Shown here: one piece after another, positions 29,436 through 56,375 of the stretch
Layout of the letters: each line of letters starts with the position of its first letter
Numbering within the stretch: position 1 is the stretch's first letter
DNA from: Bugula neritina
Taxonomy: Eukaryota; Bryozoa; Gymnolaemata; Cheilostomatida; Bugulidae
Direction of reading: 5' to 3'
Assembly (NCBI GenBank): GCA_964035545.1
Contig: OZ037768.1
Span: forward strand, 11,674,741 to 11,738,740
DNA: 64,000 nucleotides
Program-made: the position numbers and the translations under genes
The notes under the pieces: generated by a model
Database searches by the model: none
What the model saw: the letters and a program-made list of their open reading frames with translations, nothing else
Told to the model about the DNA's origin: nothing

Positions 29436-29440
29436 ACTAT

Positions 29441-29747: not shown

Positions 29748-29776
29748 CTCCTCCCTCACAAATTTAGACTTAAGAG

Positions 29777-32435: not shown

Positions 32436-32458
32436 TTCAAAATGATATGGTTGTATTT

Positions 32459-32476
32459 ATCCCACTTCTGACACCA
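32459..32476 (-). other. Primer-binding site (tRNA-Leu-like)
   Basis: On the element strand the site reads TGGTGTCAGAAGTGGGAT. It is complementary to a tRNA 3' end closing ...TCTGACACCA, which matches the acceptor end typical of animal tRNA-Leu. Located two bases inside the 5' LTR. Confidence 0.75.
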
Positions 32477-32478
32477 GT

Positions 32479-32785
32479 TGTTGTGTTCTTGTTATTTATG
32501 TTAAACAAGAGTAAACAGTAAGATTAAGCACGTATAAGTAAGATTGGCTGTAGAGTAGAATGTATGACTGTATTGTATTGAAGCTAACAAGTAACTGACA
32601 TAAAAATACATGTAGATAAACAGTGACAGAATAACAACTGGCTTGTATATTGATATGGCAAAAACTGTATATAATGAGTTTAAACAAATAGACATTAGAA
32701 TAAAAAGTAACCGAGCACATAAAATGTGGTATGTCATAATATGCATATATGTGGTGTATTGACAAGGCTAGTTCAATACATAGCA
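32479..32785 (-). repeat. 5' LTR of the gypsy element
   Basis: 307 bp, identical to 29441-29747. Should carry the element's promoter. The primer-binding site lies two bases inside its inner edge. Confidence 0.95.
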
Positions 32786-32790
32786 ACTAT

Positions 32791-33524: not shown

Positions 33525-33533
33525 TAAAAGATG
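33525..33533. repeat. Left target-site duplication of the giant transposon
   Basis: taaaagatg, matching 56367-56375 exactly. 8 or 9 bp depending on where the element's terminal base is placed. Confidence 0.75.
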
Positions 33534-33618
33534 AGGTAGGTGCAGTAATGGAGATATTGGAAATCACATATAAAAATTTACTATACAACATTTTCATTTT
33601 CTCCACATTATGTTATAT

Positions 33619-36600
33619 ATCTACACTTTTGGAGATTTGTTGAAAGTGTTAGACAGAGCCCTATCTGATTATTTTGTTAGATTGTTAGATTGTTGAAAAT
33701 CCAATGCTTTTATATATAAAAAAGTGTTGGAGATTTGTTGAAAGTGTTAGACAGACCCCTATCTGATTATTTTGTTAGATTGTTAGATTGTTGAAAATCC
33801 AATGCTTTTATATATAAAAAAGTGTTGAAGATTTGTTGAAAGTGTTAGACAGAGCCCTATCTGATTATTTTGTTAGATTGTTAGATTGTTGAATATTCAA
33901 TGCTTTTATATATAAAAAAGTGTTGGAGATTTGTTGAAAGTGTTAGACAGAGCCCTATCTGATTATTTTGTTAGATTGTTAGATTGTTGAAAATCCAATG
34001 CTTTTATATATAAAAAAGTGTTGGAGATTTGTTGAAAGTGTTAGACAGAGCCCTATCTGATTATTTTGTTAGATTGTTAGATTGTTGAAAATCCAATGCT
34101 TTTATATATAAAAAAGTGTTGAAGATTTGTTGAAAGTGTTAGACAGAGCCCTATCTGATTATTTTGTTAGATTGTTAGATTGTTGAAAATCCAATGCTTT
34201 TATATATAAAAAAGTGTTGAAGATTTGTTGAAAGTGTTAGACAGAGCCCTATCTGATTATTTTGTTAGATTGTTAGATTGTTGAATATTCAATGCTTTTA
34301 TATATAAAAAAGTGTTGGAGATTTGTTGAAAGTGTTAGACAGAGCCCTATCTGATTATTTTGTTAGATTGTTAGATTGTTGAAAATCCAATGCTTTTATA
34401 TATAAAAAAGTGTTGGAGATTTGTTGAAAGTGTTAGACAGAGCCCTATCTGATTATTTTGTTAGATTGTTAGATTGTTGAAAATCCAATGCTTTTATATA
34501 TAAAAAAGTGTTGAAGATTTGTTGAAAGTGTTAGACAGAGCCCTATCTGATTATTTTGTTAGATTGTTAGATTGTTGAAAATCCAATGCTTTTATATATA
34601 AAAAAGTGTTGGAGATTTGTTGAAAGTGTTAGACAGAGCCCTATCTGATTATTTTGTTAGATTGTTAGATTGTTGAAAATCCAATGCTTTTATATATAAA
34701 AAAGTGTTGAAGATTTGTTGAAAGTGTTAGACAGAGCCCTATCTGATTATTTTGTTAGATTGTTAGATTGTTGAAAATTCAATGCTTTTATATATAAAAA
34801 AGTGTTGGAGATTTGTTGAAAGTGTTAGACAGAGCCCTATCTGATTATTTTGTTAGATTGTTAGATTGTTGAAAATCCAATGCTTTTATATATAAAAAAG
34901 TGTTGGAGATTTGTTGAAAGTGTTAGACAGAGCCCTATCTGATTATTTTGTTAGATTGTTAGATTGTTGAAAATCCAATGCTTTTATATATAAAAAAGTG
35001 TTGGAGATTTGTTGAAAGTGTTAGACAGAGCCCTATCTGATTATTTTGTTAGATTGTTAGATTGTTGAAAATCCAATGCTTTTATATATAAAAAAGTGTT
35101 GAAGATTTGTTGAAAGTGTTAGACAGAGCCCTATCTAATTATTTTGTTAGATTGTTAGATTGTTGAAAATCCAATGCTTTTATATATAAAAAAGTGTTGG
35201 AGATTTGTTGAAAGTGTTAGACAGAGCCCTATCTGATTATTTTGTTAGATTGTTAGATTGTTGAAAATCCAATGCTTTTATATATAAAAAAGTGTTGAAG
35301 ATTTGTTGAAAGTGTTAGACAGAGCCCTATCTGATTATTTTGTTAGATTGTTAGATTGTTGAAAATCCAATGCTTTTATATATAAAAAAGTGTTGGAGAT
35401 TTGTTGAAAGTGTTAGACAGAGCCCTATCTGATTATTTTGTTAGATTGTTAGATTGTTGAAAATCCAATGCTTTTATATATAAAAAAGTGTTGGAGATTT
35501 GTTGAAAGTGTTAGACAGAGCCCTATCTGATTATTTTGTTAGATTGTTAGATTGTTGAAAATCCAATGCTTTTATATATAAAAAAGTGTTGGAGATTTGT
35601 TGAAAGTGTTAGACAGAGCCCTATCTGATTATTTTGTTAGATTGTTAGATTGTTGAAAATCCAATGCTTTTATATATAAAAAAGTGTTGAAGATTTGTTG
35701 AAAGTGTTAGACAGAGCCCTATCTGATTATTTTGTTAGATTGTTAGATTGTTGAAAATCCAATGCTTTTATATATAAAAAAGTGTTGGAGATTTGTTGAA
35801 AGTGTTAAACAGAGCCCTATCTGATTATTTTGTTAGATTGTTAGATTGTTGAAAATCCAATGCTTTTATATATAAAAAAGTGTTGAAGATTTGTTGAAAA
35901 TGTTAGACAGAGCCCTATCTGATTATTTTGTTAGATTGTTAGATTGTTGAAAATCCAATGCTTTTATATATAAAAAAGTGTTGGAGATTTGTTGAAAGTG
36001 TTAGACAGAGCCCTATCTGATTATTTTGTTAGATTGTTAGATTGTTGAAAATCCAATGCTTTTATATATAAAAAAGTGTTGAAGATTTGTTGAAAGTGTT
36101 AGACAGAGCCCTATCTGATTATTTTGTTAGATTGTTAGATTGTTGAAAATTCAATGCTTTTATATATAAAAAAGTGTTGGAGATTTGTTGAAAGTGTTAG
36201 ACAGAGCCCTATCTGATTATTTTGTTAGATTGTTAGATTGTTGAAAATCCAATGCTTTTATATATAAAAAAGTGTTGGAGATTTGTTGAAAGTGTTAGAC
36301 AGAGCCCTATCTGATTATTTTGTTAGATTGTTAGATTGTTGAAAATCCAATGCTTTTATATATAAAAAAGTGTTGAAGATTTGTTGAAAGTGTTAGACAG
36401 AGCCCTATCTGATTATTTTGTTAGATTGTTAGATTGTTGAATATTCAATGCTTTTATATATAAAAAAGTGTTGGAGATTTGTTGAAAGTGTTAGACAGAG
36501 CCCTATCTGATTATTCTGTTAGATTGTTAGATTGTTGAAAATTCAATGCTTTTATATATAAAAAAGTGTTGGAGATTTGTTGAAAGTGTTAGACAGAGCC

Positions 36601-38450
36601 CTATCTGATTATTTTGTTAGATTGTTAGATTGTTGAAAATCCAATGCTTTTATATATAAAAAAGTGTTGAAGATTTGTTGAAAGTGTTAGACAGAGCCCT
36701 ATCTGATTATTTTGTTAGATTGTTAGATTGTTGAAAATTCAATGCTTTTATATATCTACACTTTTGGAGATTTGTTGAAAGTGTTAGACAGAGCCCTATC
36801 TGATTATTTTGTTAGATTGTTAGATTGTTGAAAATCCAATGCTTTTATATATAAAAAAGTGTTGGAGATTTGTTGAAAGTGTTAGACAGAGCCCTATCTG
36901 ATTATTTTGTTAGATTGTTAGATTGTTGAAAATCCAATGCTTTTATATATAAAAAAGTGTTGAAGATTTGTTGAAAGTGTTAGACAGAGCCCTATCTGAT
37001 TATTTTGTTAGATTGTTAGATTGTTGAAAATCCAATGCTTTTATATATAAAAAAGTGTTGAAGATTTGTTGAAAGTGTTAGACAGAGCCCTATCTGATTA
37101 TTTTGTTAGATTGTTAGATTGTTGAAAATTCAATGCTTTTATATATAAAAAAGTGTTGGAGATTTGTTGAAAGTGTTAGACAGAGCCCTATCTGATTATT
37201 TTGTTAGATTGTTAGATTGTTGAAAATCCAATGCTTTTATATATAAAAAAGTGTTGAAGATTTGTTGAAACTGTTAGACAGAGCCCTATCTGATTATTTA
37301 GTTAGATTGTTAGATTGTTGAAAATTCAATGCTTTTATATATCTACACTTTTGGAGATTTGTTGAAAGTGTTAGACAGAGCCCTATCTGATTATTTTGTT
37401 AGATTGTTAGATTGTTGAAAATCCAATGCTTTTATATATAAAAAAGTGTTGAAGATTTGTTGAAAGTGTTAGACAGAGCCCTATCTGAATATTTTGTTAG
37501 ATTGTTAGATTGTTGAAAATTCAATGCTTTTATATATAAAAAAGTGTTGAAGATTTGTTGAAAGTGTTAGACAGTGCCCTATCTGATTATTTTGTTAGAT
37601 TGTTAGATTGTTGAAAATTCAATGCTTTTATATATAAAAAAGTGTTGGAGATTTGTTGAAAGTGTTAGACAGAGCCCTATCTGATTATTTTGTTAGATTG
37701 TTAGATTGTTGAAAATCCAATGCTTTTATATATAAAAAAGTGTTGGAGATTTGTTGAAAGTGTTAGACAGAGCCCTATCTGATTATTTTGTTAGATTGTT
37801 AGATTGTTGAAAATCCAATGCTTTTATATATAAAAAAGTGTTGAAGATTTGTTGAAAGTGTTAGACAGAGCCCTATCTGATTATTTTGTTAGATTGTTAG
37901 ATTGTTGAAAATTCAATGCTTTTATATATAAAAAAGTGTTGGAGATTTGTTGAAAGTGTTAGACAGAGCCCTATCTGATTATTTTGTTAGATTGTTAGAT
38001 GGTTGAAAATCCAATGCTTTTATATATAAAAAAGTGTTGAAGATTTGTTGAAAGTGTTAGACAGAGCCCTATCTGATTATTTTGTTAGATTGTTAGATTG
38101 TTGAAAATCCAATGCTTTTATATATAAAAAAGTGTTGAAGATTTGTTGAAAGTGTTAGGCAGAGCCCTATCTGATTATTTTGTTAGATTGTTAGATTGTT
38201 GAAAATTCAATGCTTTTATATATAAAAAAGTGTTGGAGATTTGTTGAAAGTGTTAGACAGAGCCCTATCTGATTATTTTGTTAGATTGTTAGATTGTTGA
38301 AAATCCAATGCTTTTATATATAAAAAAGTGTTGAAGATTTGTTGAAAGTGTTAGACAGAGCCCTATCAAATTATTTTGTTAGGTTGTTAGATTGTTGGAA
38401 ATTCAATGCTTTTATATATCTACACTTTCAGAGATTTGTTGAAAGTGTTT
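33619..38450 (+). repeat. Left 98-bp tandem array (about 49 units)
   Basis: Units start at regular 98-bp steps (gtgttggag or gtgttgaag at 33724, 33822, 33920, 34018 and so on). Each holds gacagagccctatctgatta, three spaced ttgttagattg-like words and a ttttatatataaaaaa block. Units differ at a few fixed positions (ggag/gaag, aaatcc/aaattc/atattc). Near the two ends and at about 36,755 and 37,340 a variant has tatatctacactttt in place of the A-run. No coding potential. Orientation is opposite to the right array. Confidence 0.97.
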
Positions 38451-38641
38451 GTACATTGTTTTTTCCTGCAATGTATTTGTTGAATGCTTCTATGCTGTGA
38501 AGCCGATCATTTCATGCTTCCATTCAATTAAAAATAGTCATAACACTAATTTTTTTGACATTTTGAGCATTTAATAATTTAATTGCTAAAATATAAAAAA
38601 TACATTACTCTAAATAGCATCAATGTAAAACAACTCATCCT
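38451..38641. other. Spacer between left array and P-loop gene stop
   Basis: AT-rich 3' flank of the minus-strand P-loop gene; nothing else recognised. Confidence 0.5.
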
Positions 38642-41442
38642 CTATTTCTTTATAAAATACATGGAGTTTTTTCTTGCTCCTTGTGTTATAGTTCCAAGTC
38701 CTATTTTTTCTGCCGCCATCAAAAAATCCTTGCATTCACTCGCAGTTTTGATTATTTTGTTCTGCTGCAGCGTCCTTGCTGTTATCACCTTCTCTTTTAG
38801 AGCATGCAACCTCTTTGTCGCATTGAGCTCCAAAAATTGTTCTTCGGTCATTGCCCCATAGTAACTGCTATTCTGCAAATTCATAACATATATTTCTTGA
38901 ACAGTCATTGGAAGGTTCCAAAGATGATTTGCTCCACATTTTCAATTGTTTTATATTTTAACAGCAGCTTCGCAACATATATCGTAATTGCTTTGTTCAT
39001 TATTGCAATTTTTTTTCGAAACACCAACCTCTTCAGCCTGTTCACCCTTTCTTTGAGGCATCCCAATGATATTTAATTTCCAACCATCAAGATGCCGCAT
39101 AACTGCAATTGCCTGTGTCATGCTGCTTGCTTGTACAATTCTAGTCCCTGGCACTCCTTCCTCAAGTGCATTGCTTGCCGCTTCCAGCACCATGGCCAAT
39201 CGTAGGACATAACCCTGCATAATTACAATCAAGCAACTATAAGTTTACACAATAAGGTGTTTACAAACATGTATGGATTGAGCTGCATCTATGATACTGA
39301 ATTTCATTAGAAAACAATTCTGGGTAAAAGAGATTCTCACACTTCATATTTTTAAAGCTTGTGACTTTGAGTTATCGTAACATAGTAATATTTGCAAATA
39401 TCTGTAGCGTTTTTTTGGTACATAGGCAATGAAATTTGTAAAAGCTAGCTTATAAAGTTTGTAAATTGCCGAAATTTTACTTACAGAAGATTTATTTACC
39501 AGTCCCAAAGACGGATCAGCTGCTGGGAGGTCAGACGTTTTTGCCTCCATCTCATCAAAATAATGTTCGAACAATGTTCCCGCTTCTGAATTTAGTTTAT
39601 AGAAGTTCTTCTGAAAAAGTGGCCTCACAAATATTAAATACTAAATAATGCAATACATACAATACATTTCAAGTCTCTTAACCAATTAAAATTTATAAAG
39701 ATCCAAATACATAATTTTAATGAAAATGAACTTTTTTACACACGATTCACTTGCATACAACTTATAACTTATCCAGTTTTAAAATCCAGCTACATGCCAA
39801 ACCAGTTACTAGCTATCTTGGCAGATTCAAATACATATAGACTTATACTATTCAGCATATATGCATTACTTAAAATTTTACCTCTGAACAATGGTGATTT
39901 TGAAACACCTTCAAAAAAAGATTGAACAGATCTTTCCCACTCTCCACTCGCTTTCCTATCTCTTGAAACTTTACATGGCGCTTTGTGGTGAAGCATATCA
40001 AATGGCGGTCTAAAAACCCGTCTATATCGCCTCTCTTCATGCGCTGGTTGAGCAGCCGAGGTTGAAGAAAGCCTAGAAGTTATATGAAAGATTTTGTATA
40101 AAGTTTCAACAGGTAAAATATATTATATACCATTGTACAACACTTCTTTTAATAAATAATAGAACAGTAGCCAATAAACTGCAAACTACAAGAAAAGGAA
40201 ATAAAGAAATTTTACATGTACACACTGAACTTTTGTGTACCTGTGTAATTTAATCTTGTTTCTTCTATTTCTTGTAGGCCTTGCTTGCTGTTTCGGGCCC
40301 AGCTCCCACCACCAGATAGTGTTAGCCAAACTCGTCTATCTAGGGAATCTGGTCTTCCCTTATTGTCTAGACATTCGAACAAGCCTTCAATCTCATCCAG
40401 TATATTAAGATAAGTTCCGTTATTGGTGGATAATTGCTCATGCAATTTTGCCATAGTGATTGTTTCATTTGAGCAGAAAAGGCGAGAGAGACATGGCTCA
40501 TTATCTATATATAAAGAAGTTCTATAGTAAATAGCAACAGAAAAATTTTTATCAGTAAAGTGAAAAAACAATGCTTATCTGAAAGAGCAGTTATTTTTTC
40601 CAGCAAAAGTTTAAACTGCAAATATTATGAAACATTGCATAACTACCTTGCGTTGAAAGTCCACTAAAACTTGTTTCAGCTTGTTCATTACACACAGTGT
40701 CTTTCACTCGCTTGAGGGCTGCCAACAGACACTTCAATGCCACTGTTTTTCGAGACCCTTTAGGTAACAGTAAATAAAAAATACTAATAATTTATCCTAA
40801 CATACAAGCGTGGGGGTTTGGGTAAAAAAAGCTCTAATCATGCTAAGCAAAAGACTGATAAATGGTTTTGAATAAAATTCTGTTCTCTTCATAATTTAGG
40901 CATTTTAATAGTCATTAGTTAATAAACATCAACATTCATGATATGTGATTATGATGTTTAACCTGGAGGAGCAGCCACTGCAGACCAAATTATATTTGGT
41001 TCAGTAAAGTTGATCTCATCCCTATGAGTTGAGACAGTAGAAATCCCCATCAATCCAGACACAATTGTGAGAACCGGTAGCAACAGCATCGAGATGTTGA
41101 CAGAGGCTTCTTTTGAAGTATCATCTAATAGCTTTACCAGCGGAGTGTTGGGGAGAACTTCCCATAATGGATCAGGATTTACCTGAAGTAAGTAAAATAT
41201 GGTTTAAATGATAAATTATTAAATAAAAATACAATTGGTCATTTATAATTTCCTAGAAATGTTATTCCTTACCAAGATATAGAAGAATAGTTGTATAAAT
41301 ATAATAATGCAAATCCATAGCTACTAATAACAATTCAAATACTTACATGTTCAGAAGTATCTGTAATAGTAATTTCAGTGCTTTCTACTGACATAGCTTC
41401 ACAGTTGAGATTGGTTATATCAGTATCTGCGTTAGTGTCCAT
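38642..41442 (-). CDS. DUF3987-like P-loop ATPase of the giant transposon
   Basis: Eight exons on the minus strand: 41442-41347, 41182-40963, 40757-40647, 40504-40241, 40072-39882, 39610-39485, 39214-39029, 38872-38642. They give 474 aa with all phases closing. In order the protein shows a P-loop-like AAPPGSRKTVALKCLL, a Walker-B-like YLNILDEIEGLF, GGGSW, then TGFLQPRLLNQ and GFLDRHLICF. A helical segment YVLRLAMVLEAA and a C-terminal segment that could be winged-helix follow. This order matches DUF3987 (PF13148) proteins, which resemble primase-associated or helicase-like ATPases in phages and plasmids. The P-loop has R where GKT/GKS proteins usually have G (GSRKT). No frame break is visible. 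The gene is transcribed outward to the left end, head-to-head with the transposase. Its role in transposition is inference. Confidence 0.7.
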
Positions 41443-41521
41443 CCTATTATAATTCTAAGTATAAATACCAAGATGGTGTAGTCTGGATGTAGTCTGTATC
41501 AGGCGAGCTTTACTGCTTTAC

Positions 41522-41911
41522 TGTCTAAACTGACAGCATGACTCTAACAATATTGCAACTACTAAAAATGGTTTTGTCTTATATACTAATCCATTTGATA
41601 AACATCATATTGTGTTGCAAGAAGTATTATTTCACATTTTAGCTATTTTGGGGTAGGATCTCACTATTTCAAAGAAGTGGGCTGAAGTAAACAAACACCG
41701 TGTGACATCACAGCTGATGCAAGCATAACTGCTGACTATGAATCATTCTACATGCGTAGCTACTGTTTTGGGGTAGTAATTAAAGAAGCATTAGGTTGAC
41801 TACTGGCAGCTAGTGGTTATATAGGCTAATTGAAGGTTGATGACATTGTGATTGTGCGTGATGGTACTACGAGTTATAATTCCTGTAAACATCCTATTTC
41901 ATAACATTACA
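41522..41911 (+). repeat. BEL/Pao LTR, plus orientation
   Basis: 390 bp beginning TGTCTAAAC and ending CATTACA. Its inverted, somewhat diverged partner is at 43276-43660. Facing LTRs are not a normal retrotransposon layout. Confidence 0.7.
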
Positions 41912-43275
41912 CTCGACCCTTTAATTTCTATCTATTCACTTAGAGGGAATTAACAATTATATTATTATGCATTTAAGATACTAAGCTAAAATACTAATAT
42001 AGGTATGCATGCAAAGGTTATGGGGTAAATAGGTAAATTAATTTGTGGATAGGCCTATCTAAATATTTGAGTGGAGCTAGTCTCACACCTTTACTGTTCA
42101 ACTCTGTAGTTGCTAGTTGCACTTTTACCTTACGAATTAAGTCATCTCAGTTTTATGTGTTTCTATCTTTACTTACACATTTGTCTTTACTTAGCCTGTA
42201 ATATTCATCTGAAAATGACCCTTTTTGTACCCACTGCAGTATAAGATGTTTAGCATCTGTCAAGTCAATAATTGTGAGTCTGGGAGTTATGCTACCTTTA
42301 TGCTTTACCAATCTTTTTCTTTTTGGGGTGATACACGCCAAAGTGGGGAATGTACCACTGATGTTTGCTTGCCTCACAATTTGTAGGTACCAATTCTGCA
42401 TCGCCATTGTTTATTATGTCTGCCATAAATGCCACGTAATCTGTTTCATATTTCTGGTCTTTAAGCATTTTAGTTTTGAGGATATCAAGTCTGTGCACAG
42501 CTATTTGTCTATTGTCTGGTAATTGTGGCTTAGCATTTTTAAATGACAGTGGCATGCTGTAATAATTGTCTTTTCTTTGTTTAATATTGTTGCGCATGTT
42601 ATCTAAAAACTTGGCATCTTCCTGTGACATTTTATGAGTAGCAATGCACTTTGTGTCAGTATAATCTTGCTGTAGGACATTCAAGATATCTGAACTCAAG
42701 TTCTGCTCATGAGCCATAGCCCTATTGCATGTGGGAAATGAGTTTGTTTCATGCTTACCACTATTGCCTACAATACACCATCCTAGAGGTGTTCTCAGAG
42801 CAAAGGGATCATTGATTGCAAGGCCTATTTTAGTTTCAAGTGGCACTAAAGCTCTGGAGCTGTCATACCCTATAAAAATTCATATCTCTATATCTAAACC
42901 TTGTGGTATTTTACCTGCAATGCATTTAAGGTGTGGCCATCTATTGGCAATTTCTGGTGTGGGTATGTGCTGCTTGTTAATTAGAATGCTGTCCGTACTG
43001 TAAGTCTATCCTACTTGTATCTGCTCATGCATGTTCAGTCCTCTAATAGTCAAGTTATTGTACACCTTACACTTCATTTCCAAGTTGTCAGCTGTCATTG
43101 TTGTTAGTTTAAGAGAAACTGGTTTGCTTGTAGCTGTTTATAGCTTACTAACAACTTGGTTGGTTACAAATGCGGTATCTGACATGCTATCTAAAAGTGC
43201 ATAAGTTAGCATTTCCTCAAGATTTACAGCACAACTATACCAACACTTTATTATCTCTATCTCTTACAAGGAGGG
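41912..43275 (-). pseudogene. BEL/Pao pol remnant, deleted and broken
   Basis: Minus-strand fragments of BEL/Pao pol. From about 43,225 down there is a retropepsin-like segment LLDSMSDTAFV, where the usual D-S/T-G is D-S-M. Next is the linker to RT (SRALVPLETKIGLAINDPFA, then TPLGW), with an open stretch 42846-42298 that ends in YIPHFGVYHPKKK. RT catalytic motifs, RNase H and most of integrase are missing. A piece resembling the region before the integrase zinc domain (LTIIDLTDAKHLILQWVQKG) follows to 42153. In-frame stops occur. The part from 41,912 to 42,150 is unassigned. Confidence 0.75.
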
Positions 43276-43660
43276 TGTAATGTTACGAAATAGGATGTTT
43301 ACAGGAATTATAACTCGTAGTACCATCACGCACAATCACAATGTCATCAACCTTCAATTAGCCTATATAACCACTAGCTGCCAGTAGTCAACCTAATGCT
43401 TCTTTAATTACTACCCCAAAACAGTAGCTACGCATGTAGAATGATTCATAGTCAGCAGTTATGCTTGCATCAGCTGTGATGTCACAGGTGTTTGTTTACT
43501 TCAGCCCACTTCTTTGAAACAGTAAGATCCTACCCCAAAATAGCTAAAATGTGAAACCATACCTCTTACAACGCAATAATGTTTATCAAATGGATTAGTA
43601 TATAAGACAAAACCATTTTTAGTAGTTGCAATATTGTTAGTCATGCTGTCAGTTTAGACA
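43276..43660 (-). repeat. BEL/Pao LTR, minus orientation (copy 1)
   Basis: 385 bp, reverse-complement relative of 41522-41911, with scattered substitutions and small indels. Its inner edge abuts the protease remnant almost directly, so gag is deleted. Confidence 0.7.
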
Positions 43661-43780
43661 ACATTTTTTAAGTTTATGTAAGACTACCAAAGAGTAGCAT
43701 TATTTGAAAGACTGTGCAAAGCCACAGCATCAACATAACAGTAGATTAGGAGAGAGAGAAAAGGTAACAAACTTCTATTT

Positions 43781-43827
<47 letters not shown>

Positions 43828-44888
43828 GATTACATTTTTATACTATAAAGTTTCAATAATATGGACTGTAGTTACATGCTAGGTTGAATTGTTATTTCAT
43901 GCTGCTATCTACAATTTATGATATACATTGCTAGTGCCTTTACATACATACTTATTATACTACATACATTTTGTTTGCGTTAATATCATTATGCCTTATG
44001 TTGTATCATTATTATTTTAGTTTTTACAGTCAGTATTTGATCAACATTGGTGATTCAAATAAACTCTGATCACGGCTAAAACCCTCCCTATTCCTAGTCA
44101 GGCTGTATAAGCTAGAGTGTCACTCTAAAGCAAGAATCATAGCAAAGAGTGTCATTCTATAGAGGGAGATCTCTGCCTGATTACATCACATTACGTAGAG
44201 GTAGGTTAAGTAAAGGGCAAAATTAGAAACTTACCATAAGAAGTCGTTTTCTTAAACCGAATTAGTGAACTTAGGCTATCTCAATTTTTCCACTGATCGT
44301 AATGCTCTAAATGTACATGTGAGTATTTGTCTGTATATATATGTATATACAACAATATTTTTAAAATTAGTATTCACACAAATGTATATTATTTCAAGTT
44401 TTTGCATAATGTTTTTTTACTCTAAATGAACTTCACACCCAAATTTAGTATGAGTTAAAAATACTTAAGCTACCTATCTCAATTATTTTACTGTTGCGCA
44501 GCAATATTGCTATATTTTGCTTTCAATCTTAGAATTAGGACATGTACATTAAAAGTTTTTACTTGATATTTCAATTGTGCAATTCATTCAATATACTTTT
44601 AAAGTTATATATAATTTGCTGGATGTACATCTATATTTTTTTATAAGACAAGTTGTTGTATTTCTAGTATAATTAATTGAAATGCATCTGACAAATGTAT
44701 AGTTGTAGTTGAAGTTTAAAAAAAAATTTGTGATCTAATGAAAAAGTTTGTAGTGGTAATAGTTTTCTTTGCCACATATATAAATAGTTCTACAGTATAA
44801 TCATACGTTACATAACTACTTTCAAAAAGACACTTCAACATATTTCTAACTATATGAGTATCATTTTATAGATACTACAAACATTGAC
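43661..44888. other. Upstream region of transposase gene, with (AT)n
   Basis: Contains an AT dinucleotide run near 43,787-43,824, otherwise AT-rich non-coding DNA. With the BEL insertion removed, this and 41443-41521 would form a roughly 1.3-kb divergent promoter region. A possible acceptor (ttttatag) just before 44,880 means an untranslated upstream exon cannot be excluded. Confidence 0.5.
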
Positions 44889-47369
44889 ATGCCTCAGTTT
44901 ACCCTGATAGCTGGAATAATGCCATTGTTTGCTTATGCATACTTTGCTGTCCCAGAGGGAACTCCTTTCAGATGGAAGAAAATTACCAGTTACATTAAAG
45001 ACCATTTGGCCAAGATTCAAAGCTATGGAGAGCTTACAAAAATAACTGTGAGTGTTTCTGTTGATTTAGAAACTAGCTTACGACAATATAATTGATTCAC
45101 TAGAAATTTAATAATTTTGTATTTGAAGTTTTTCTAAATATTTTTTGAGAGATGTAATGAAAAAAAAGAAATGTTGTAAATTAACTGAATATCATACACC
45201 GTTGTTAGTAAAATATCATCGCACAACAGTAAATACGATAACTTTGGTTAAATGCTTAGTTTAAAGTAATGAGATATTGGCAGAAACTCTAGGTAATCGC
45301 ATGGCTTCCTGTAGAAAGCTAGTCACATATGGAAATTTTTGAAAACACCCTTTTAATGTTTATGAATTGGATAAGAGGCAATGTGTATTACAAAATAAAA
45401 TGTTTTAAATTTAAAATTAGGTTGGAGCTGGAAAGCATAAAGAGAGTAACTATGAGTGCAGCAGTTTTTACAAAGAAGTGTTCCGGATCATTGGGGAAGA
45501 TAATTTGATGGTGTACAACCTTCCTTTAAAATCTCATATGGTGTTTTTACCAAAAAAGAAGCTATGTTGTGACCAGGTCGGTTAATATTTAAATCATTAA
45601 AAGTATTTCATTAGTGTATATGCGTATCTGGTATTATATATTATGAATAGCTAGCAGAGTTGGGGTAGTTGTAATTGGTTGTAATTAATTACATTTACTA
45701 AAGTAATTGAATGTAATTTGTAATTGATGTATAAGAATTTGATTGTAATTGTAATTAATAAAGAATTGCTAATGTTTTTGAATTTAATGTCATATTTATC
45801 AACCTATTTTTTACTGTTAAGAACAAAGAAGGTTTTCAGTTGTCAAAATTGCCCCAGAAATGAGATTAAATAACATTTAGTACTCTTTTGTTAGGACAAA
45901 TAATCTTGTAATTGTAATTAATTACATTACCATGTAATTGACTCCAACCTTGATAGCTAGAGTAGTAAAAAACCTTTGTACCAGTGTATGTTATCAACTT
46001 TTCACTAATGTAGATTATGAAGATAGACAAAGATCGGCCATCGGAAGTTGTAGTGTATACACGAGATGGTATGTCAACAGCACAAGTGTATCACACTACG
46101 TGCAGCAAATGTAAGACTGCATATTTTCCAACTTATGAAGAAACCAACACCAGCAGAACATTCTACACAACATCAAAGGACGATAAAATTATGATGACAA
46201 GCCGGTCAACAGCCTTTACATTGGATTACCTTAAAGAAGTGCTAGTTGATATTCAACTAGGTCGCAGCTTTGGGGAGCTCTGTGAGCGATACAGTAAGCT
46301 GTATGGCTCAGATGAGTACAGAGGAGAAGTTTTTAAAACCAGACTAGAAGATGTTTATTTTATAGCCCAGCTATTAAAATACTTCAATAACAATGTCAGC
46401 TTCTCAAAAGATAATATAGCTAACCGGCTTGCCATAGATGACGTGTGTGATGAAGCAGCTGAAATAATATTCGCACAGAACAGTAAATGGGCTGCTCACA
46501 ATTGTAAAATAAAAGGTTGCTCAGAGGGATTTGTTATGTGTGATGGCAATGAAAAAATAAACAGAAGAATTTGTGCTGCTCCTAAACAACATTTTAAGTT
46601 AGGGAAGGGAATGCCCAACACTATAGGTTGCTGCCCAAACACACCAACTTTAGGAGGAAAAAACAAATCCTCGTCGGTATATTGCAAAGATCATCAATTT
46701 TTAGATTCAGACATTGTTGACAAACACATCATAGTGACAATTAATGTGCCAGATCAAGCTGTATCATCTAGGATTGTTGATGTGAGTAAAGATGTGGTAA
46801 AGATGCAAGAAGAAGATGAAAATATTGGCTGCAAAAAAACAAAGAATATAACTAGATTTCATCAAAAAACAGCTGGGATTATGGCCATTGTCAAGCCCTG
46901 TGGGATAATCATAGATCATCGGGAGATGTACACTTGTGAATCGGCAAGCCAACTCTTTGTCCAGTTGTTGAAGTTAATAGATGATCATGGAGACAAGTTG
47001 AAATATGTGGGCTATGACAGGGCATGTGAATTTCAGCCATTTGTGGAGCGACTGCATAAGAACGGAAATGCTGGTGCTGCTGAGCTCAGCAAGTTGAAAT
47101 ATCTGGTAGACAGATTTCACATCAGAGGTCATACAAAAGCAGAGTGTGACATTTCCCAAGCCTCATGCAAATACCATCCAGATTTGCCGATCTTCACGGA
47201 AATAAGTGCAGCAAACACAGAATGTGCAGAGCAAACATTCTCCTGGCTAAAGAAGTATAAGCATACCGTTAAATACATGACTGCGGCAAAATTTCGGTTT
47301 TTCCTATACTCAATAATAGAGGACCGGAATACAGAAATCCACCAACAGCAAAAAGGAAAATTTCTTTGA
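44889..47369 (+). CDS. KDZ-type transposase with cysteine cluster (copy 1)
   Basis: Likely RNase H-fold transposase of the giant element. Three exons 44889-45047, 45421-45576 and 46014-47369 (all phase 0) give 556 aa. A Cys cluster spans the exon 2/3 joint: KKKLCCDQ, then VVVYTRDG and YHTTCSKCKTAYFPTY, resembling the CxC5-type cluster described with KDZ transposases. More cysteines sit at about 269-281. Candidate catalytic residues are Asp282 (VMCDGNEK), Asp440 (GYDRAC) and Glu508 or Glu511 (NTECAEQTFSWL). Asp471 and His474 lie in VDRFHIRGH. The last motifs match the KDZ pattern of YDxAC, DxFHxxGH with CxxxxP, and NTExxEQ. The frame is intact, so the gene may be active. Other RNase H-fold families are possible, but none I know fits as well. 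Confidence 0.72.
45655..45952. mobile_element. hAT-type MITE in transposase intron 2 (copy 1)
   Basis: 298-bp AT-rich element with inverted ends (CAGAGTTGGGGTAGTTG and, reading inward from the right, CAAGGTTGGAGTCAATT). Identical 8-bp flanks ATAGCTAG lie at 45647-45654 and 45953-45960. The 8-bp duplication and CA-G-type ends indicate hAT. The interior is built of taatt/ttgtaatt words. No coding capacity. Confidence 0.8.
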
Positions 47370-47557
47370 AATAACACTTATTTTTATTTCTATATAGTTT
47401 AAATTTTTTTACTTTACCATAATTTTACTTATTATTATCTGAATTCCTTGTGAAAAAAACATAAATGTTAACAATTCTGACAGCTCAACATGTAAAATAT
47501 ATTTAAAACATTGTCTTAACATTTCCAACAAGCAAGTCAACATAATTGAAAATAGCT
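47370..47557. other. Transposase 3' flank (copy 1)
   Basis: AT-rich spacer between the transposase stop and the right array; no other feature. Confidence 0.5.
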
Positions 47558-49428
47558 TTGTCTAACACTTTCAACAAATATCTGAAAGTGTTGATATATA
47601 AAAGCATTGAATTTCCAACAATCTAACAATCTAACAAAATAATCAGATAGGGCTCTGTCTAACACTTTCAACAAATCTCCAACACTTTTTTATATATAAA
47701 AGCATTGAATTTTCAACAATCTAACAATCTAACAGAATAATCAGATAGGGCTCTGTCTAACACTTTCAACAAATCTCCAACACTTTTTTATATATAAAAG
47801 CATTGAATTTTCAACAATCTAACAATCTAACAAAATAATCAGATAGGGCTCTGTCTAACACTTTCAACAAATCTCCAACACTTTTTTTATATATAAAGCA
47901 TTGGATTTTCAACAATCTAACAATCTAACAAAATAATCAGATAGGGCTCTGTCTAACACTTTCAACAAATCTCCAAAAGTGTAGATATATAAAAGCATTG
48001 AATTTCCAACAATCTAACAATCTAACAAAATAATCAGATAGGGCTCTGTCTAACACTTTCAACAAATCTTCAACACTTTTTTATATATAAAAGCATTGGA
48101 TTTTCAACAATCTAACAAAATAATCAAATAGGGCTCTGTCTAACACTTTCAACAAATCTCCAACACTTTTTTATATATAAAAGCATTGGATTTTCAACAA
48201 TCTAACAATCTAACAAAATAATCAGATAGGGCTCTGTCTAACACTTTCAACAAATCTCCAACACTTTTTTATATATAAAAGCATTGGATTTTCAACAATC
48301 TAACAATCTAACAAAATAATCAGATAGGGCTCTGTCTAACACTTTCAACAAATCTTCAACACTTTTTTATATATAAAAGCATTGGATTTTCAACAATCTA
48401 ACAATCTAACAAAATAATCAGATAGGGCTCTGTCTAACACTTTCAACAAATCTCCAAAAGTGTAGATATATAAAAGCATTGAATTTTCAACAATCTAACA
48501 AAATAATCAGATAGGGCTCTGTCTAACACTTTCAACAAATCTCCAACACTTTTTTATATATAAAAGCATTGAATTTTCAACAATCTAACAATCTAACAAA
48601 ATAATCAGATAGGGCTCTGTCTAACACTTTCAACAAATCTCCAACACTTTTTTTATATATAAAGCATTGGATTTTCAACAATCTAACAATCTAACAAAAT
48701 AATCAGATAGGGCTCTGTCTAACACTTTCAACAAATCTCCAACACTTTTTTTATATATAAAGCATTGGATTTTCAACAATCTAACAATCTAACAAAATAA
48801 TCAGATAGGGCTCTGTCTAACACTTTCAACAAATCTTCAACACTTTTTTATATATAAAAGCATTGGATTTTCAACAATCTAACAATCTAACAAAATAATC
48901 AGATAGGGCTCTGTCTAACACTTTCAACAAATCTCCAACACTTTTTTATATATAAAAGCATTGAATTTTCAACAATCTAACAATCTAACAAAATAATCAG
49001 ATAGGGCTCTGTCTAACACTTTCAACAAATCTCCAACACTTTTTTATATATAAAAGCATTGAATATTCAACAATCTAACAATCTAACAAAATAATCAGAT
49101 AGGGCTCTGTCTAACACTTTCAACAAATCTCCAAAAGTGTAGATATATAAAAGCATTGAATTTTCAACAATCTAACAATCTAACAAAATAATCAAATAGA
49201 GCTCTGTCTAACACTTTCAACAAATCTCCAACACTTTTTTATATATAAAAGCATTGGATTTTCAACAATCTAACAATCTAACAAAATAATCAGATAGGGC
49301 TCTGTCTAACACTTTCAACAAATCTCCAACACTTTTTTATATATAAAAGCATTGAATTTTCAACAATCTAACAATCTAACAAAATAATCAGATAGGGCTC
49401 TGTCTATCACTTTCAACAAATCTCCAAC
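47558..49428 (-). repeat. Right 98-bp tandem array, copy 1 (about 19 units)
   Basis: The same repeat as the left array but reverse-complemented (e.g. aatcagatagggctctgtct, then aacactttcaacaaatctcc). A few units are shortened by loss of one aatctaac word. Variant units with aaaagtgtagatatataaaa recur. Together with the left array it forms an inverted pair at the transposon ends. Confidence 0.97.
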
Positions 49429-49599
49429 AATCTAACAAATATGATACACTAGTCAGCCCTTGTCTAACAGTTGTATCCATAGCTCTCTACAATTCCAAAT
49501 ATGTTGGTAGGACTCATCTAACACAAGTCAAAAGCTTTCAACAAAAATGCTATTCAGTGAGGAATTTTTAGTCAAAATCTCCATTTCTGCACCTAACTG
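49429..49599. repeat. Right terminal segment and TIR, copy 1
   Basis: About 170 bp between the right array and the element end, closing with ATCTCCATTTCTGCACCTA, the inverted match of the left terminus at 33537. It is followed directly by BEL pol sequence instead of host DNA, marking the internal duplication joint. Confidence 0.8.
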
Positions 49600-50040
49600 T
49601 TCAAGTGGCACTAAAGCTCTGGAGCTGTCATACCCTATAAAAATTCATATCTCTATATCTAAACCTTGTGGTATTTTACCTGCAATGCATTTAAGGTGTG
49701 GCCATCTATTGGCAATTTCTGGTGTGGGTATGTGCTGCTTGTTAATTAGAATGCTGTCCGTACTGTAAGTCTATCCTACTTGTATCTGCTCATGCATGTT
49801 CAGTCCTCTAATAGTCAAGTTATTGTACACCTTACACTTCATTTCCAAGTTGTCAGCTGTCATTGTTGTTAGTTTAAGAGAAACTGGTTTGCTTGTAGCT
49901 GTTTATAGCTTACTAACAACTTGGTTGGTTACAAATGCGGTATCTGACATGCTATCTAAAAGTGCATAAGTTAGCATTTCCTCAAGATTTACAGCACAAC
50001 TATACCAACACTTTATTATCTCTATCTCTTACAAGGAGGG

Positions 50041-50425
50041 TGTAATGTTACGAAATAGGATGTTTACAGGAATTATAACTCGTAGTACCATCACGCACAA
50101 TCACAATGTCATCAACCTTCAATTAGCCTATATAACCACTAGCTGCCAGTAGTCAACCTAATGCTTCTTTAATTACTACCCCAAAACAGTAGCTACGCAT
50201 GTAGAATGATTCATAGTCAGCAGTTATGCTTGCATCAGCTGTGATGTCACAGGTGTTTGTTTACTTCAGCCCACTTCTTTGAAACAGTAAGATCCTACCC
50301 CAAAATAGCTAAAATGTGAAACCATACCTCTTACAACGCAATAATGTTTATCAAATGGATTAGTATATAAGACAAAACCATTTTTAGTAGTTGCAATATT
50401 GTTAGTCATGCTGTCAGTTTAGACA
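50041..50425 (-). repeat. BEL/Pao LTR, minus orientation (copy 2)
   Basis: Duplicate of 43276-43660 carried in the 6.77-kb duplication. Confidence 0.7.
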
Positions 50426-50545
50426 ACATTTTTTAAGTTTATGTAAGACTACCAAAGAGTAGCATTATTTGAAAGACTGTGCAAAGCCACAGCATCAACA
50501 TAACAGTAGATTAGGAGAGAGAGAAAAGGTAACAAACTTCTATTT

Positions 50546-50594
<49 letters not shown>

Positions 50595-51655
50595 GATTAC
50601 ATTTTTATACTATAAAGTTTCAATAATATGGACTGTAGTTACATGCTAGGTTGAATTGTTATTTCATGCTGCTATCTACAATTTATGATATACATTGCTA
50701 GTGCCTTTACATACATACTTATTATACTACATACATTTTGTTTGCGTTAATATCATTATGCCTTATGTTGTATCATTATTATTTTAGTTTTTACAGTCAG
50801 TATTTGATCAACATTGGTGATTCAAATAAACTCTGATCACGGCTAAAACCCTCCCTATTCCTAGTCAGGCTGTATAAGCTAGAGTGTCACTCTAAAGCAA
50901 GAATCATAGCAAAGAGTGTCATTCTATAGAGGGAGATCTCTGCCTGATTACATCACATTACGTAGAGGTAGGTTAAGTAAAGGGCAAAATTAGAAACTTA
51001 CCATAAGAAGTCGTTTTCTTAAACCGAATTAGTGAACTTAGGCTATCTCAATTTTTCCACTGATCGTAATGCTCTAAATGTACATGTGAGTATTTGTCTG
51101 TATATATATGTATATACAACAATATTTTTAAAATTAGTATTCACACAAATGTATATTATTTCAAGTTTTTGCATAATGTTTTTTTACTCTAAATGAACTT
51201 CACACCCAAATTTAGTATGAGTTAAAAATACTTAAGCTACCTATCTCAATTATTTTACTGTTGCGCAGCAATATTGCTATATTTTGCTTTCAATCTTAGA
51301 ATTAGGACATGTACATTAAAAGTTTTTACTTGATATTTCAATTGTGCAATTCATTCAATATACTTTTAAAGTTATATATAATTTGCTGGATGTACATCTA
51401 TATTTTTTTATAAGACAAGTTGTTGTATTTCTAGTATAATTAATTGAAATGCATCTGACAAATGTATAGTTGTAGTTGAAGTTTAAAAAAAAATTTGTGA
51501 TCTAATGAAAAAGTTTGTAGTGGTAATAGTTTTCTTTGCCACATATATAAATAGTTCTACAGTATAATCATACGTTACATAACTACTTTCAAAAAGACAC
51601 TTCAACATATTTCTAACTATATGAGTATCATTTTATAGATACTACAAACATTGAC

Positions 51656-54136
51656 ATGCCTCAGTTTACCCTGATAGCTGGAATAATGCCATTGTTTGCT
51701 TATGCATACTTTGCTGTCCCAGAGGGAACTCCTTTCAGATGGAAGAAAATTACCAGTTACATTAAAGACCATTTGGCCAAGATTCAAAGCTATGGAGAGC
51801 TTACAAAAATAACTGTGAGTGTTTCTGTTGATTTAGAAACTAGCTTACGACAATATAATTGATTCACTAGAAATTTAATAATTTTGTATTTGAAGTTTTT
51901 CTAAATATTTTTTGAGAGATGTAATGAAAAAAAAGAAATGTTGTAAATTAACTGAATATCATACACCGTTGTTAGTAAAATATCATCGCACAACAGTAAA
52001 TACGATAACTTTGGTTAAATGCTTAGTTTAAAGTAATGAGATATTGGCAGAAACTCTAGGTAATCGCATGGCTTCCTGTAGAAAGCTAGTCACATATGGA
52101 AATTTTTGAAAACACCCTTTTAATGTTTATGAATTGGATAAGAGGCAATGTGTATTACAAAATAAAATGTTTTAAATTTAAAATTAGGTTGGAGCTGGAA
52201 AGCATAAAGAGAGTAACTATGAGTGCAGCAGTTTTTACAAAGAAGTGTTCCGGATCATTGGGGAAGATAATTTGATGGTGTACAACCTTCCTTTAAAATC
52301 TCATATGGTGTTTTTACCAAAAAAGAAGCTATGTTGTGACCAGGTCGGTTAATATTTAAATCATTAAAAGTATTTCATTAGTGTATATGCGTATCTGGTA
52401 TTATATATTATGAATAGCTAGCAGAGTTGGGGTAGTTGTAATTGGTTGTAATTAATTACATTTACTAAAGTAATTGAATGTAATTTGTAATTGATGTATA
52501 AGAATTTGATTGTAATTGTAATTAATAAAGAATTGCTAATGTTTTTGAATTTAATGTCATATTTATCAACCTATTTTTTACTGTTAAGAACAAAGAAGGT
52601 TTTCAGTTGTCAAAATTGCCCCAGAAATGAGATTAAATAACATTTAGTACTCTTTTGTTAGGACAAATAATCTTGTAATTGTAATTAATTACATTACCAT
52701 GTAATTGACTCCAACCTTGATAGCTAGAGTAGTAAAAAACCTTTGTACCAGTGTATGTTATCAACTTTTCACTAATGTAGATTATGAAGATAGACAAAGA
52801 TCGGCCATCGGAAGTTGTAGTGTATACACGAGATGGTATGTCAACAGCACAAGTGTATCACACTACGTGCAGCAAATGTAAGACTGCATATTTTCCAACT
52901 TATGAAGAAACCAACACCAGCAGAACATTCTACACAACATCAAAGGACGATAAAATTATGATGACAAGCCGGTCAACAGCCTTTACATTGGATTACCTTA
53001 AAGAAGTGCTAGTTGATATTCAACTAGGTCGCAGCTTTGGGGAGCTCTGTGAGCGATACAGTAAGCTGTATGGCTCAGATGAGTACAGAGGAGAAGTTTT
53101 TAAAACCAGACTAGAAGATGTTTATTTTATAGCCCAGCTATTAAAATACTTCAATAACAATGTCAGCTTCTCAAAAGATAATATAGCTAACCGGCTTGCC
53201 ATAGATGACGTGTGTGATGAAGCAGCTGAAATAATATTCGCACAGAACAGTAAATGGGCTGCTCACAATTGTAAAATAAAAGGTTGCTCAGAGGGATTTG
53301 TTATGTGTGATGGCAATGAAAAAATAAACAGAAGAATTTGTGCTGCTCCTAAACAACATTTTAAGTTAGGGAAGGGAATGCCCAACACTATAGGTTGCTG
53401 CCCAAACACACCAACTTTAGGAGGAAAAAACAAATCCTCGTCGGTATATTGCAAAGATCATCAATTTTTAGATTCAGACATTGTTGACAAACACATCATA
53501 GTGACAATTAATGTGCCAGATCAAGCTGTATCATCTAGGATTGTTGATGTGAGTAAAGATGTGGTAAAGATGCAAGAAGAAGATGAAAATATTGGCTGCA
53601 AAAAAACAAAGAATATAACTAGATTTCATCAAAAAACAGCTGGGATTATGGCCATTGTCAAGCCCTGTGGGATAATCATAGATCATCGGGAGATGTACAC
53701 TTGTGAATCGGCAAGCCAACTCTTTGTCCAGTTGTTGAAGTTAATAGATGATCATGGAGACAAGTTGAAATATGTGGGCTATGACAGGGCATGTGAATTT
53801 CAGCCATTTGTGGAGCGACTGCATAAGAACGGAAATGCTGGTGCTGCTGAGCTCAGCAAGTTGAAATATCTGGTAGACAGATTTCACATCAGAGGTCATA
53901 CAAAAGCAGAGTGTGACATTTCCCAAGCCTCATGCAAATACCATCCAGATTTGCCGATCTTCACGGAAATAAGTGCAGCAAACACAGAATGTGCAGAGCA
54001 AACATTCTCCTGGCTAAAGAAGTATAAGCATACCGTTAAATACATGACTGCGGCAAAATTTCGGTTTTTCCTATACTCAATAATAGAGGACCGGAATACA
54101 GAAATCCACCAACAGCAAAAAGGAAAATTTCTTTGA
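51656..54136 (+). CDS. KDZ-type transposase (copy 2)
   Basis: Duplicate of the gene at 44889-47369, exons 51656-51814, 52188-52343 and 52781-54136. The encoded exon 1 and exon 3 sequences are identical to copy 1, and no break is seen. It retains its own upstream 1.2 kb but not the divergent P-loop gene. Confidence 0.72.
52422..52719. mobile_element. hAT-type MITE in transposase intron 2 (copy 2)
   Basis: Copy of 45655-45952 with the same 8-bp ATAGCTAG flanks. Present because it predates the tandem duplication. Confidence 0.8.
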
Positions 54137-54324
54137 AATAACACTTATTTTTATTTCTATATAGTTTAAATTTTTTTACTTTACCATAATTTTACTTATT
54201 ATTATCTGAATTCCTTGTGAAAAAAACATAAATGTTAACAATTCTGACAGCTCAACATGTAAAATATATTTAAAACATTGTCTTAACATTTCCAACAAGC
54301 AAGTCAACATAATTGAAAATAGCT

Positions 54325-56195
54325 TTGTCTAACACTTTCAACAAATATCTGAAAGTGTTGATATATAAAAGCATTGAATTTCCAACAATCTAACAATCTA
54401 ACAAAATAATCAGATAGGGCTCTGTCTAACACTTTCAACAAATCTCCAACACTTTTTTATATATAAAAGCATTGAATTTTCAACAATCTAACAATCTAAC
54501 AGAATAATCAGATAGGGCTCTGTCTAACACTTTCAACAAATCTCCAACACTTTTTTATATATAAAAGCATTGAATTTTCAACAATCTAACAATCTAACAA
54601 AATAATCAGATAGGGCTCTGTCTAACACTTTCAACAAATCTCCAACACTTTTTTTATATATAAAGCATTGGATTTTCAACAATCTAACAATCTAACAAAA
54701 TAATCAGATAGGGCTCTGTCTAACACTTTCAACAAATCTCCAAAAGTGTAGATATATAAAAGCATTGAATTTCCAACAATCTAACAATCTAACAAAATAA
54801 TCAGATAGGGCTCTGTCTAACACTTTCAACAAATCTTCAACACTTTTTTATATATAAAAGCATTGGATTTTCAACAATCTAACAAAATAATCAAATAGGG
54901 CTCTGTCTAACACTTTCAACAAATCTCCAACACTTTTTTATATATAAAAGCATTGGATTTTCAACAATCTAACAATCTAACAAAATAATCAGATAGGGCT
55001 CTGTCTAACACTTTCAACAAATCTCCAACACTTTTTTATATATAAAAGCATTGGATTTTCAACAATCTAACAATCTAACAAAATAATCAGATAGGGCTCT
55101 GTCTAACACTTTCAACAAATCTTCAACACTTTTTTATATATAAAAGCATTGGATTTTCAACAATCTAACAATCTAACAAAATAATCAGATAGGGCTCTGT
55201 CTAACACTTTCAACAAATCTCCAAAAGTGTAGATATATAAAAGCATTGAATTTTCAACAATCTAACAAAATAATCAGATAGGGCTCTGTCTAACACTTTC
55301 AACAAATCTCCAACACTTTTTTATATATAAAAGCATTGAATTTTCAACAATCTAACAATCTAACAAAATAATCAGATAGGGCTCTGTCTAACACTTTCAA
55401 CAAATCTCCAACACTTTTTTTATATATAAAGCATTGGATTTTCAACAATCTAACAATCTAACAAAATAATCAGATAGGGCTCTGTCTAACACTTTCAACA
55501 AATCTCCAACACTTTTTTTATATATAAAGCATTGGATTTTCAACAATCTAACAATCTAACAAAATAATCAGATAGGGCTCTGTCTAACACTTTCAACAAA
55601 TCTTCAACACTTTTTTATATATAAAAGCATTGGATTTTCAACAATCTAACAATCTAACAAAATAATCAGATAGGGCTCTGTCTAACACTTTCAACAAATC
55701 TCCAACACTTTTTTATATATAAAAGCATTGAATTTTCAACAATCTAACAATCTAACAAAATAATCAGATAGGGCTCTGTCTAACACTTTCAACAAATCTC
55801 CAACACTTTTTTATATATAAAAGCATTGAATATTCAACAATCTAACAATCTAACAAAATAATCAGATAGGGCTCTGTCTAACACTTTCAACAAATCTCCA
55901 AAAGTGTAGATATATAAAAGCATTGAATTTTCAACAATCTAACAATCTAACAAAATAATCAAATAGAGCTCTGTCTAACACTTTCAACAAATCTCCAACA
56001 CTTTTTTATATATAAAAGCATTGGATTTTCAACAATCTAACAATCTAACAAAATAATCAGATAGGGCTCTGTCTAACACTTTCAACAAATCTCCAACACT
56101 TTTTTATATATAAAAGCATTGAATTTTCAACAATCTAACAATCTAACAAAATAATCAGATAGGGCTCTGTCTATCACTTTCAACAAATCTCCAAC
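54325..56195 (-). repeat. Right 98-bp tandem array, copy 2 (about 19 units)
   Basis: Unit-by-unit repeat of the array at 47558-49428, including the same variant and shortened units. Confidence 0.97.
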
Positions 56196-56366
56196 AATCT
56201 AACAAATATGATACACTAGTCAGCCCTTGTCTAACAGTTGTATCCATAGCTCTCTACAATTCCAAATATGTTGGTAGGACTCATCTAACACAAGTCAAAA
56301 GCTTTCAACAAAAATGCTATTCAGTGAGGAATTTTTAGTCAAAATCTCCATTTCTGCACCTAACTG

Positions 56367-56375
56367 TAAAAGATG
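56367..56375. repeat. Right target-site duplication of the giant transposon
   Basis: taaaagatg, identical to 33525-33533. It is absent after the first copy of the right end (49599), where BEL sequence follows directly. Confidence 0.75.

Follow-up and report, generated by a model that had tools for sequence, protein, structure and literature searches.

In En/Spm (CACTA), Tn7, Mu and IS21, a DDE transposase works alongside a partner protein dedicated to it: TnpA binds DNA, TnsC, MuB and IstB are AAA+ regulators, and En/Spm in addition carries subterminal repeats. To our knowledge, most descriptions of eukaryotic cut-and-paste transposons feature either a lone transposase or a transposase and a partner that binds DNA. 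Here we analyse a 64,000-nucleotide stretch of the genome of the bryozoan Bugula neritina (the window; C4:11674741-11738740, within a 215.8-Mb assembly of 295 contigs), of which positions 33533-56366 very probably constitute a two-gene KDZ-superfamily DNA transposon with a DUF3987 partner gene. This degree of confidence covers the best explanation as a whole, including the inferred mechanism and the idea that long terminal repeats (LTRs) serve as promoters. The plan of transposase plus partner protein is like that of En/Spm, Tn7, Mu and IS21 by description.

Among the closest described systems is Zisupton. Zisupton has terminal inverted repeats (TIRs) and 8-bp target site duplications (TSDs), Dileera has 8-bp TSDs, and Kyakuja has 7-bp TSDs and is devoid of TIRs (PMC12730594). 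Zisupton genes are multi-exon, and the nematode and fish proteins reach up to 1400 aa (PMC9297572). The Bugula element shares with Zisupton of fish, fungi and nematodes the KDZ domain, TIRs, 8-bp TSDs and multi-exon genes, but has a compact 556-aa transposase, a DUF3987 partner and long 98-bp subterminal arrays; the likeness to Zisupton in particular is one of TSD length and TIRs, and Dileera equally has an 8-bp TSD. Fungal Kyakuja, Dileera and Zisupton elements carrying TET/JBP are likewise KDZ elements with a second, captured enzyme gene, which there encodes a dioxygenase and here a member of a P-loop ATPase family (PMC12730594). KolobokP, too, is a DDE transposon of animals that carries an additional enzyme gene, but its partner is a homing endonuclease and it belongs to another superfamily (PMC9587614). 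DUF3987 itself (PF13148) has been proposed, for mobile elements of bacteria and archaea, to take the place of known helicases within primase proteins (PMC5862659), whereas the Bugula gene with the same domain lies beside a DDE transposase, has seven introns and reads GS[RK]K[ST] at its P-loop. Among the papers listed, we found none that pairs KDZ with DUF3987, in a search outside of which lay the founding Zisupton (2012) and KDZ (2014) papers and Repbase; the searched animal papers treating KDZ elements held no mention of DUF3987 in the text available, and a literature search for a eukaryotic context of DUF3987 turned up none.

The element as a whole (33533-56366) is 22,834 bp long, as defined by its ends and by an 8-bp TSD common to other copies. 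Its 23-bp TIRs, GAGGTAGGTGCAGTAATGGAGAT at 33533-33555 on the plus strand and CAGTTAGGTGCAGAAATGGAGAT at 56344-56366 on the minus strand, were recognised by comparing ends within the window and with other copies, and are alike at 20 of 23 positions in the window copy. The original prediction, made from the letters of this stretch, had noticed matched inverted ends with one mismatch, and these were recovered as a 19-base match, TAGGTGCAGTAATGGAGAT at 33537 (+) against TAGGTGCAGAAATGGAGAT at 56362 (-), alike at 18 positions. No further end site with up to 3 mismatches was found in the window except an internal right end at 49595, and one site had 4. The first base of the element is the G of GAGG at 33533, one base earlier than had been predicted, and in each of the four full copies known in the genome TAGGTGCAG is preceded by GAGG at the left end and by CAGT at the right. 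The window copy is flanked by TAAAAGAT at 33525-33532 and again at 56367-56374 (both +). Exact 8-bp duplications, all different, flank the four full copies (TAAAAGAT, CTATGTCT, TAAATATT and CATTTTTA), and 8/8 duplications, TGATTGAG and GCTCAATC, flank two elements with DUF3987 only, in the second of which (GCTCAATC) the right end starts with CATT and not CAGT. Thus, an exact 8-bp TSD was present in all six gene-bearing copies with two recognised ends, where the chance expectation for each is about 4e-5. The nine flanking bases (taaaagatg) reported earlier are indeed identical on both sides, but a nine-bp TSD was ruled out: the ninth base differs in four of the six elements (C5:10983288, C5:8701702, C4:16747097 and C3:3889854) and 8 bp are common to all six. 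Since the first G of the element meets a G in the flank, the ninth match in the window is due to chance. The proposed comparison of TSD length with Zisupton therefore gave 8 bp here and 8 bp as stated for Zisupton (PMC12730594).

Further copies, which the original prediction had suggested looking for, were found. A KDZ exon was detected at six loci including the window (13 matches in the genome search), and 30 kb was read around each of the five others; since genome searches score the best candidates only, the locus counts for KDZ and DUF3987 are lower bounds. Three of these loci hold full copies that have the two genes between the same ends: C5:10983288-11000354 (17.07 kb), C8:6195058-6210418 (15.36 kb) and C5:8701702-8720832 (19.13 kb), the last of which contains nested insertions and has its KDZ gene disrupted. 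The DUF3987 exons of the three are 98-100% identical to those of the window and retain their splice signals, and the DUF3987 frame is open in all four full copies, the window included. Several near-identical copies, together with the 8-bp target duplications, lead to the conclusion that the element moved recently. An old, decayed copy at C4:13.37-13.39 Mb holds both genes, 12.6 kb apart and in the same divergent order, its aligned pieces being 69-88% alike and the alignment ending at the DUF3987 start codon. Hence the pairing of KDZ and DUF3987 is not a recent accident.

The window carries two divergent, intact, multi-exon genes, as predicted, an 8-exon gene on the minus strand and a 3-exon gene on the plus strand, both with open frames. 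The plus-strand gene (44889-47369; coding exons 44889-45047, 45421-45576 and 46014-47369) encodes 556 aa, a length that depends on our choice of start codon. The KDZ-like assignment was borne out by Pfam, where the KDZ domain PF18758 (E-value 5.5e-9, 36.5 bits against a cut-off of 26.6) and the CxC5 cysteine-cluster domain (E-value 9.6e-11, 42.3 bits against 26.9) both exceeded the curated cut-offs. The predicted fold is closest to the ISCth4 transposase, a comparison that speaks only for the families in its result list, and predicted structure and homology together indicate an RNase H (DDE) fold in which the acidic residues are conserved. On these two grounds, the product of the gene is a DDE-type transposase of RNase H fold. 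Residues D177, D335 and E406 (numbering of the 451-aa exon) form a putative catalytic triad, and the protein would move the element by cut-and-paste. Against a decayed copy on C7, the ratio of non-synonymous to synonymous substitution rates (dN/dS) was 0.22, calculated from 436 comparable codons after exclusion of any that contained gaps or stops. The large size and replication-type ATPase might call to mind a Polinton-like or viral element instead of a KDZ transposon, but the 8-bp TSDs and the DDE transposase speak otherwise, and no polymerase or capsid match was seen in the scanned frames and spliced genes, which make up part of the frames of the element; we regard this explanation as extremely improbable.

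The minus-strand gene (38642-41442; 474 aa) was modelled with exons 1-4 at 41442-41347, 41182-40963, 40757-40647 and 40504-40241, and exons 5-8 at 40072-39882, 39610-39485, 39214-39029 and 38872-38642. All seven introns are GT-AG and there is no internal stop. PF13148 matched the protein with 100.6 bits against a cut-off of 27 (E-value 1.4e-28), in agreement with the predicted DUF3987-like P-loop protein, and neither gene product had to be assigned to an unrelated host family, an outcome that the original prediction had named as fatal to it. The phage family phrog_2373, annotated as DNA helicase, also matched (E-value 1.1e-12). A search of PDB sequences gave at best a chance-level match (E-value 0.57). 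A PF13148 profile search of the genome returned zero matches and missed even the window's own gene, and is hence uninformative. When exon 4 was used as query against a protein collection, 16 of the 17 candidates, all from other sources, matched (41-94% on alignment), while a full-length query found no relative among the 8000 candidates sharing most words. A canonical Walker A motif reads GxxxxGK[ST], and Walker B is an acidic motif. Walker B is present as NILDEIEG, with the D invariant and the next E kept in at least 90% of the 17-row exon-4 alignment. Walker A is not canonical and reads APPGSRKT in the window and in the DUF3987-only element at C4:16747097. In all four of the 16 relatives that reach the P-loop the motif reads GS[KR]K[ST], the second glycine being replaced by R or K, and the variant therefore looks like a trait of this DUF3987 group.

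The DUF3987 gene is under purifying selection. Between the 5.0-kb element at C4:16747097 and the window, 91 synonymous and 64 non-synonymous changes were counted (dN/dS 0.17); for exons 6-8, dN/dS was 0.13 at a synonymous rate (dS) of 0.89. Among close copies, differences numbered 0, 4 and 14 in exons against 1, 9 and 23 in introns, a weak trend. Given its location within the element, its intact state in all four full copies and the purifying selection acting on it, the gene probably benefits the element and is not just carried along.

Between genes and ends lie arrays of a 98-bp minisatellite, found by repeat analysis: the left array (33629-38449, +) has about 49 copies, and the right one, of opposite orientation (-), has about 19 and occurs twice, at 47555-49429 and 54322-56196. 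Array sizes differ among copies, with left/right units of about 49/19 in the window, 60/18 at C5:10983288 and 48/12 in the C8 copy. The second right array is part of a 6.77-kb tandem duplication revealed by self-comparison. Unit 1 (42835-49599, +) and unit 2 (49600-56366, +) differ solely by one AT unit, by which unit 2 is longer, and the second unit contains a second, identical KDZ gene (51656-54136, +; exons shifted by 6767). Subtraction of one unit gives about 16.07 kb, close to the 16 kb estimated earlier. Neither the C5:10983288 copy nor the C8 copy shows the duplication; one KDZ exon was found in each, and their alignments run through. At the junction, the last right-end base of the element (49599) is fused to the internal site 42835, so that a second copy of the right end lies inside (49577-49599, -). 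As the junction coincides exactly with the right terminus, the duplication suggests aberrant joining of the right end, in which the right end, once cut on one sister copy, would join a site inside the other, yielding a tandem duplication. In maize Ac, aberrant transposition also yields tandem duplications, there via reversed ends (PMC3744419). It is somewhat unlikely that the duplicated right half is an assembly artefact reflecting no real event. The near identity of the units fits an artefact, and the evidence for the duplication is the assembly itself; a random assembly error, however, is not expected to prefer the exact terminus (49599/49600), a junction which a tandem duplication starting from a cut right end accounts for.

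That the DUF3987 ATPase partner is a stable component of the element is well supported. Its putative role as a helper is based on the PHROG helicase match, the primase-helicase proposal for prokaryotic relatives (PMC5862659) and the selection on the gene. The protein would be a helicase-like or remodelling ATPase aiding a step of transposition, possibly by building or unwinding complexes of the ends on the long 98-bp subterminal arrays or, alternatively, by helping replication after strand transfer. A further-reaching reading, to which we give somewhat less than an even chance, is that of a DDE transposon in a eukaryote relying on a helicase-like ATPase of its own, as an animal counterpart of ATPase-assisted bacterial transposons, in which transposase and ATPase would assemble on long, expandable subterminal arrays and one-ended aberrant reactions would leave tandem duplications ending exactly at a terminus. 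A long-lived pairing of KDZ with a helicase-like ATPase, if true, would suggest that DDE transposition in eukaryotes includes a step that consumes energy, and would place DUF3987, whose function is unknown, in a eukaryotic setting. Near-identical intact copies, minimal derivatives and the duplication at the terminus make the system tractable in cells.

Several observations weigh against our explanation of the element. The ATPase activity of the protein is uncertain, given the R or K at the second glycine of Walker A. Foldseek alone gave no match below 1e-3 for the transposase model, a search for an empty site, i.e. a locus without the insertion, found none, and no relatives were found in the viral contigs and prokaryote genomes searched. 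Mini-elements of about 300-350 bp, devoid of arrays and genes (described below), seem to have been mobilised at least once, and arrays are therefore not strictly needed in cis. Nor is the linkage complete: DUF3987 is present at five of the six KDZ loci, the decayed C7 copy having none within 30 kb, and KDZ at five of the 11 DUF3987 loci, which leaves six without detected KDZ, two of them with element ends.

The 11 loci were obtained by merging the matches of exons 4, 2 and 8 (10, 10 and 11, respectively). They comprise the four full elements, the old copy, two TIR-bounded elements without detected KDZ, C4:16747097-16752113 (5.0 kb) and C3:3889854-3894180 (4.3 kb), and four remnant sets at C3:6.23 Mb, C3:19.74 Mb, C3:3.885-3.888 Mb and C2:13.57 Mb. 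According to the original prediction, a P-loop gene outside consistent ends would count against it; the two KDZ-less elements do have the ends, while two remnant sets do not, the surroundings of C3:6.23 Mb and C3:19.74 Mb showing neither KDZ nor recognisable ends. These numbers bear on the idea that a DUF3987 element and a KDZ element were two separate families with common ends that became fused in this lineage, KDZ serving each of them in trans. The excess of DUF3987 over KDZ loci (11 against 6) and the same ends and 8/8 TSDs of the two elements without detected KDZ are what such a history would leave, but the old decayed copy already has both genes in the same order, and the 5.0-kb element keeps one LTR and a fragment of the intergenic retrotransposon piece of full copies, as befits a deletion derivative of one; on balance we judge two families unlikely. 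Since KDZ-less elements and mini-elements moved, action in trans is possible for the genes. All eight DUF3987 exons of the 5.0-kb element are open, and the element is a mosaic relative to the window, differing by about 17-22% in the left array and exons 8-6 and by about 2-9% in exons 5-1 and the LTR, as if it had recombined between two lineages. The 4.3-kb element has an internal duplication of part of the DUF3987 gene and broken frames, and about 2 kb beyond it there is a DUF3987 remnant of greater divergence.

The open frame of the DUF3987-only derivative and the C7 copy without DUF3987 are also what would be expected if DUF3987 had been captured as cargo or were an element-selfish gene with no part in DNA transfer, acting for instance in anti-silencing or in defence against other elements. 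KDZ elements are known to capture extra genes (PMC12730594), and TET/JBP has been proposed to play such a role in fungal KDZ elements. On the other hand, the matching phage family is annotated as a DNA helicase, prokaryotic DUF3987 is predicted to serve replication (PMC5862659), and no PADLOC defence family matched the protein at an E-value up to 1. Purifying selection and the old two-gene copy show long retention, yet are compatible with cargo. We consider cargo quite possible, though we lean away from it, and retain the helper ATPase as the preferred reading.

End-like sequences are far more numerous than elements. The 23-bp left end had 557+514 genome sites with up to 3 mismatches, against 0+0 in the control, and many of the 100 such sites listed were a ...GAGAA variant. 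The TIR core had 1143 sites; among 100 listed, 43 were perfect and 57 had one mismatch, 50 of the latter being the ...GAGAA variant. We did not accept these 1143 sites as element copies, as the variant dominates the mismatched sites and two examples of it (C8:6192292 and C8:6211445) showed no inverted partner; the two share 71 bp with each other and about 30 bp with the left end of the element. Eight short end pairs were found and seven read. Five of them are mini-elements of 297-350 bp with both ends and neither genes nor arrays (C1:4807928, C1:5551830, C6:2317053, C6:13463832 and C8:4984116), with CACAAYAT-like flanks on both sides, 6 to 8 of 8 positions matching between sides. A sixth pair shares the right flank only (2/8), and the seventh (89 bp) also matches at 2/8. 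Independent insertion of the mini-elements was rejected, as at least five have nearly the same flanks; these look like one insertion amplified inside another repeat. The end pair C9:1603694/1616129 was rejected as a single element, having flanks alike at 2/8 and no element genes detected inside.

Two LTRs of one family face outwards between the genes. One (41522-41912, -; 391 bp) points at the DUF3987 gene and ends 80 bp before its ATG; the other (43275-43660, +), inverted and repeated at 50040-50425 by self-comparison, points at the KDZ gene. They are 96.7% alike, and both are also present in the three other full copies. The inverted 390-bp intergenic region was considered as twin native promoters and rejected, as 40 genomic matches were scored and half of them (20) form ten same-strand pairs, about 4.4-7.3 kb apart, in the manner of LTRs. 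The two LTRs may now act as promoters of the DUF3987 and KDZ genes. Between them lies a broken internal piece of a retrotransposon (42021-42999, -), which had no significant Pfam match and which, by eye, we take to be BEL/Pao-like.

A second, multi-exon KDZ family, Zisupton-like by eye, occurs at at least five places in the genome (C8:0.99 Mb, C5:3.33 Mb, C2:21322318, C7:12131759 and C8:3609300), with no convincing DUF3987 match in 9 kb at two sites and in 3.2 kb at three. The host is an animal, and two Wnt pieces lie inside the window (PF00110, E-values 2.2e-58 and 1.9e-29). Directly to the left of the element is a piece of another LTR retrotransposon (window 29433-32788; RVT_1, E-value 5.3e-29; Ty3/gypsy-like by eye), a relative of which is nested in the C5:8701702 copy and splits it at window position 42802-42806.

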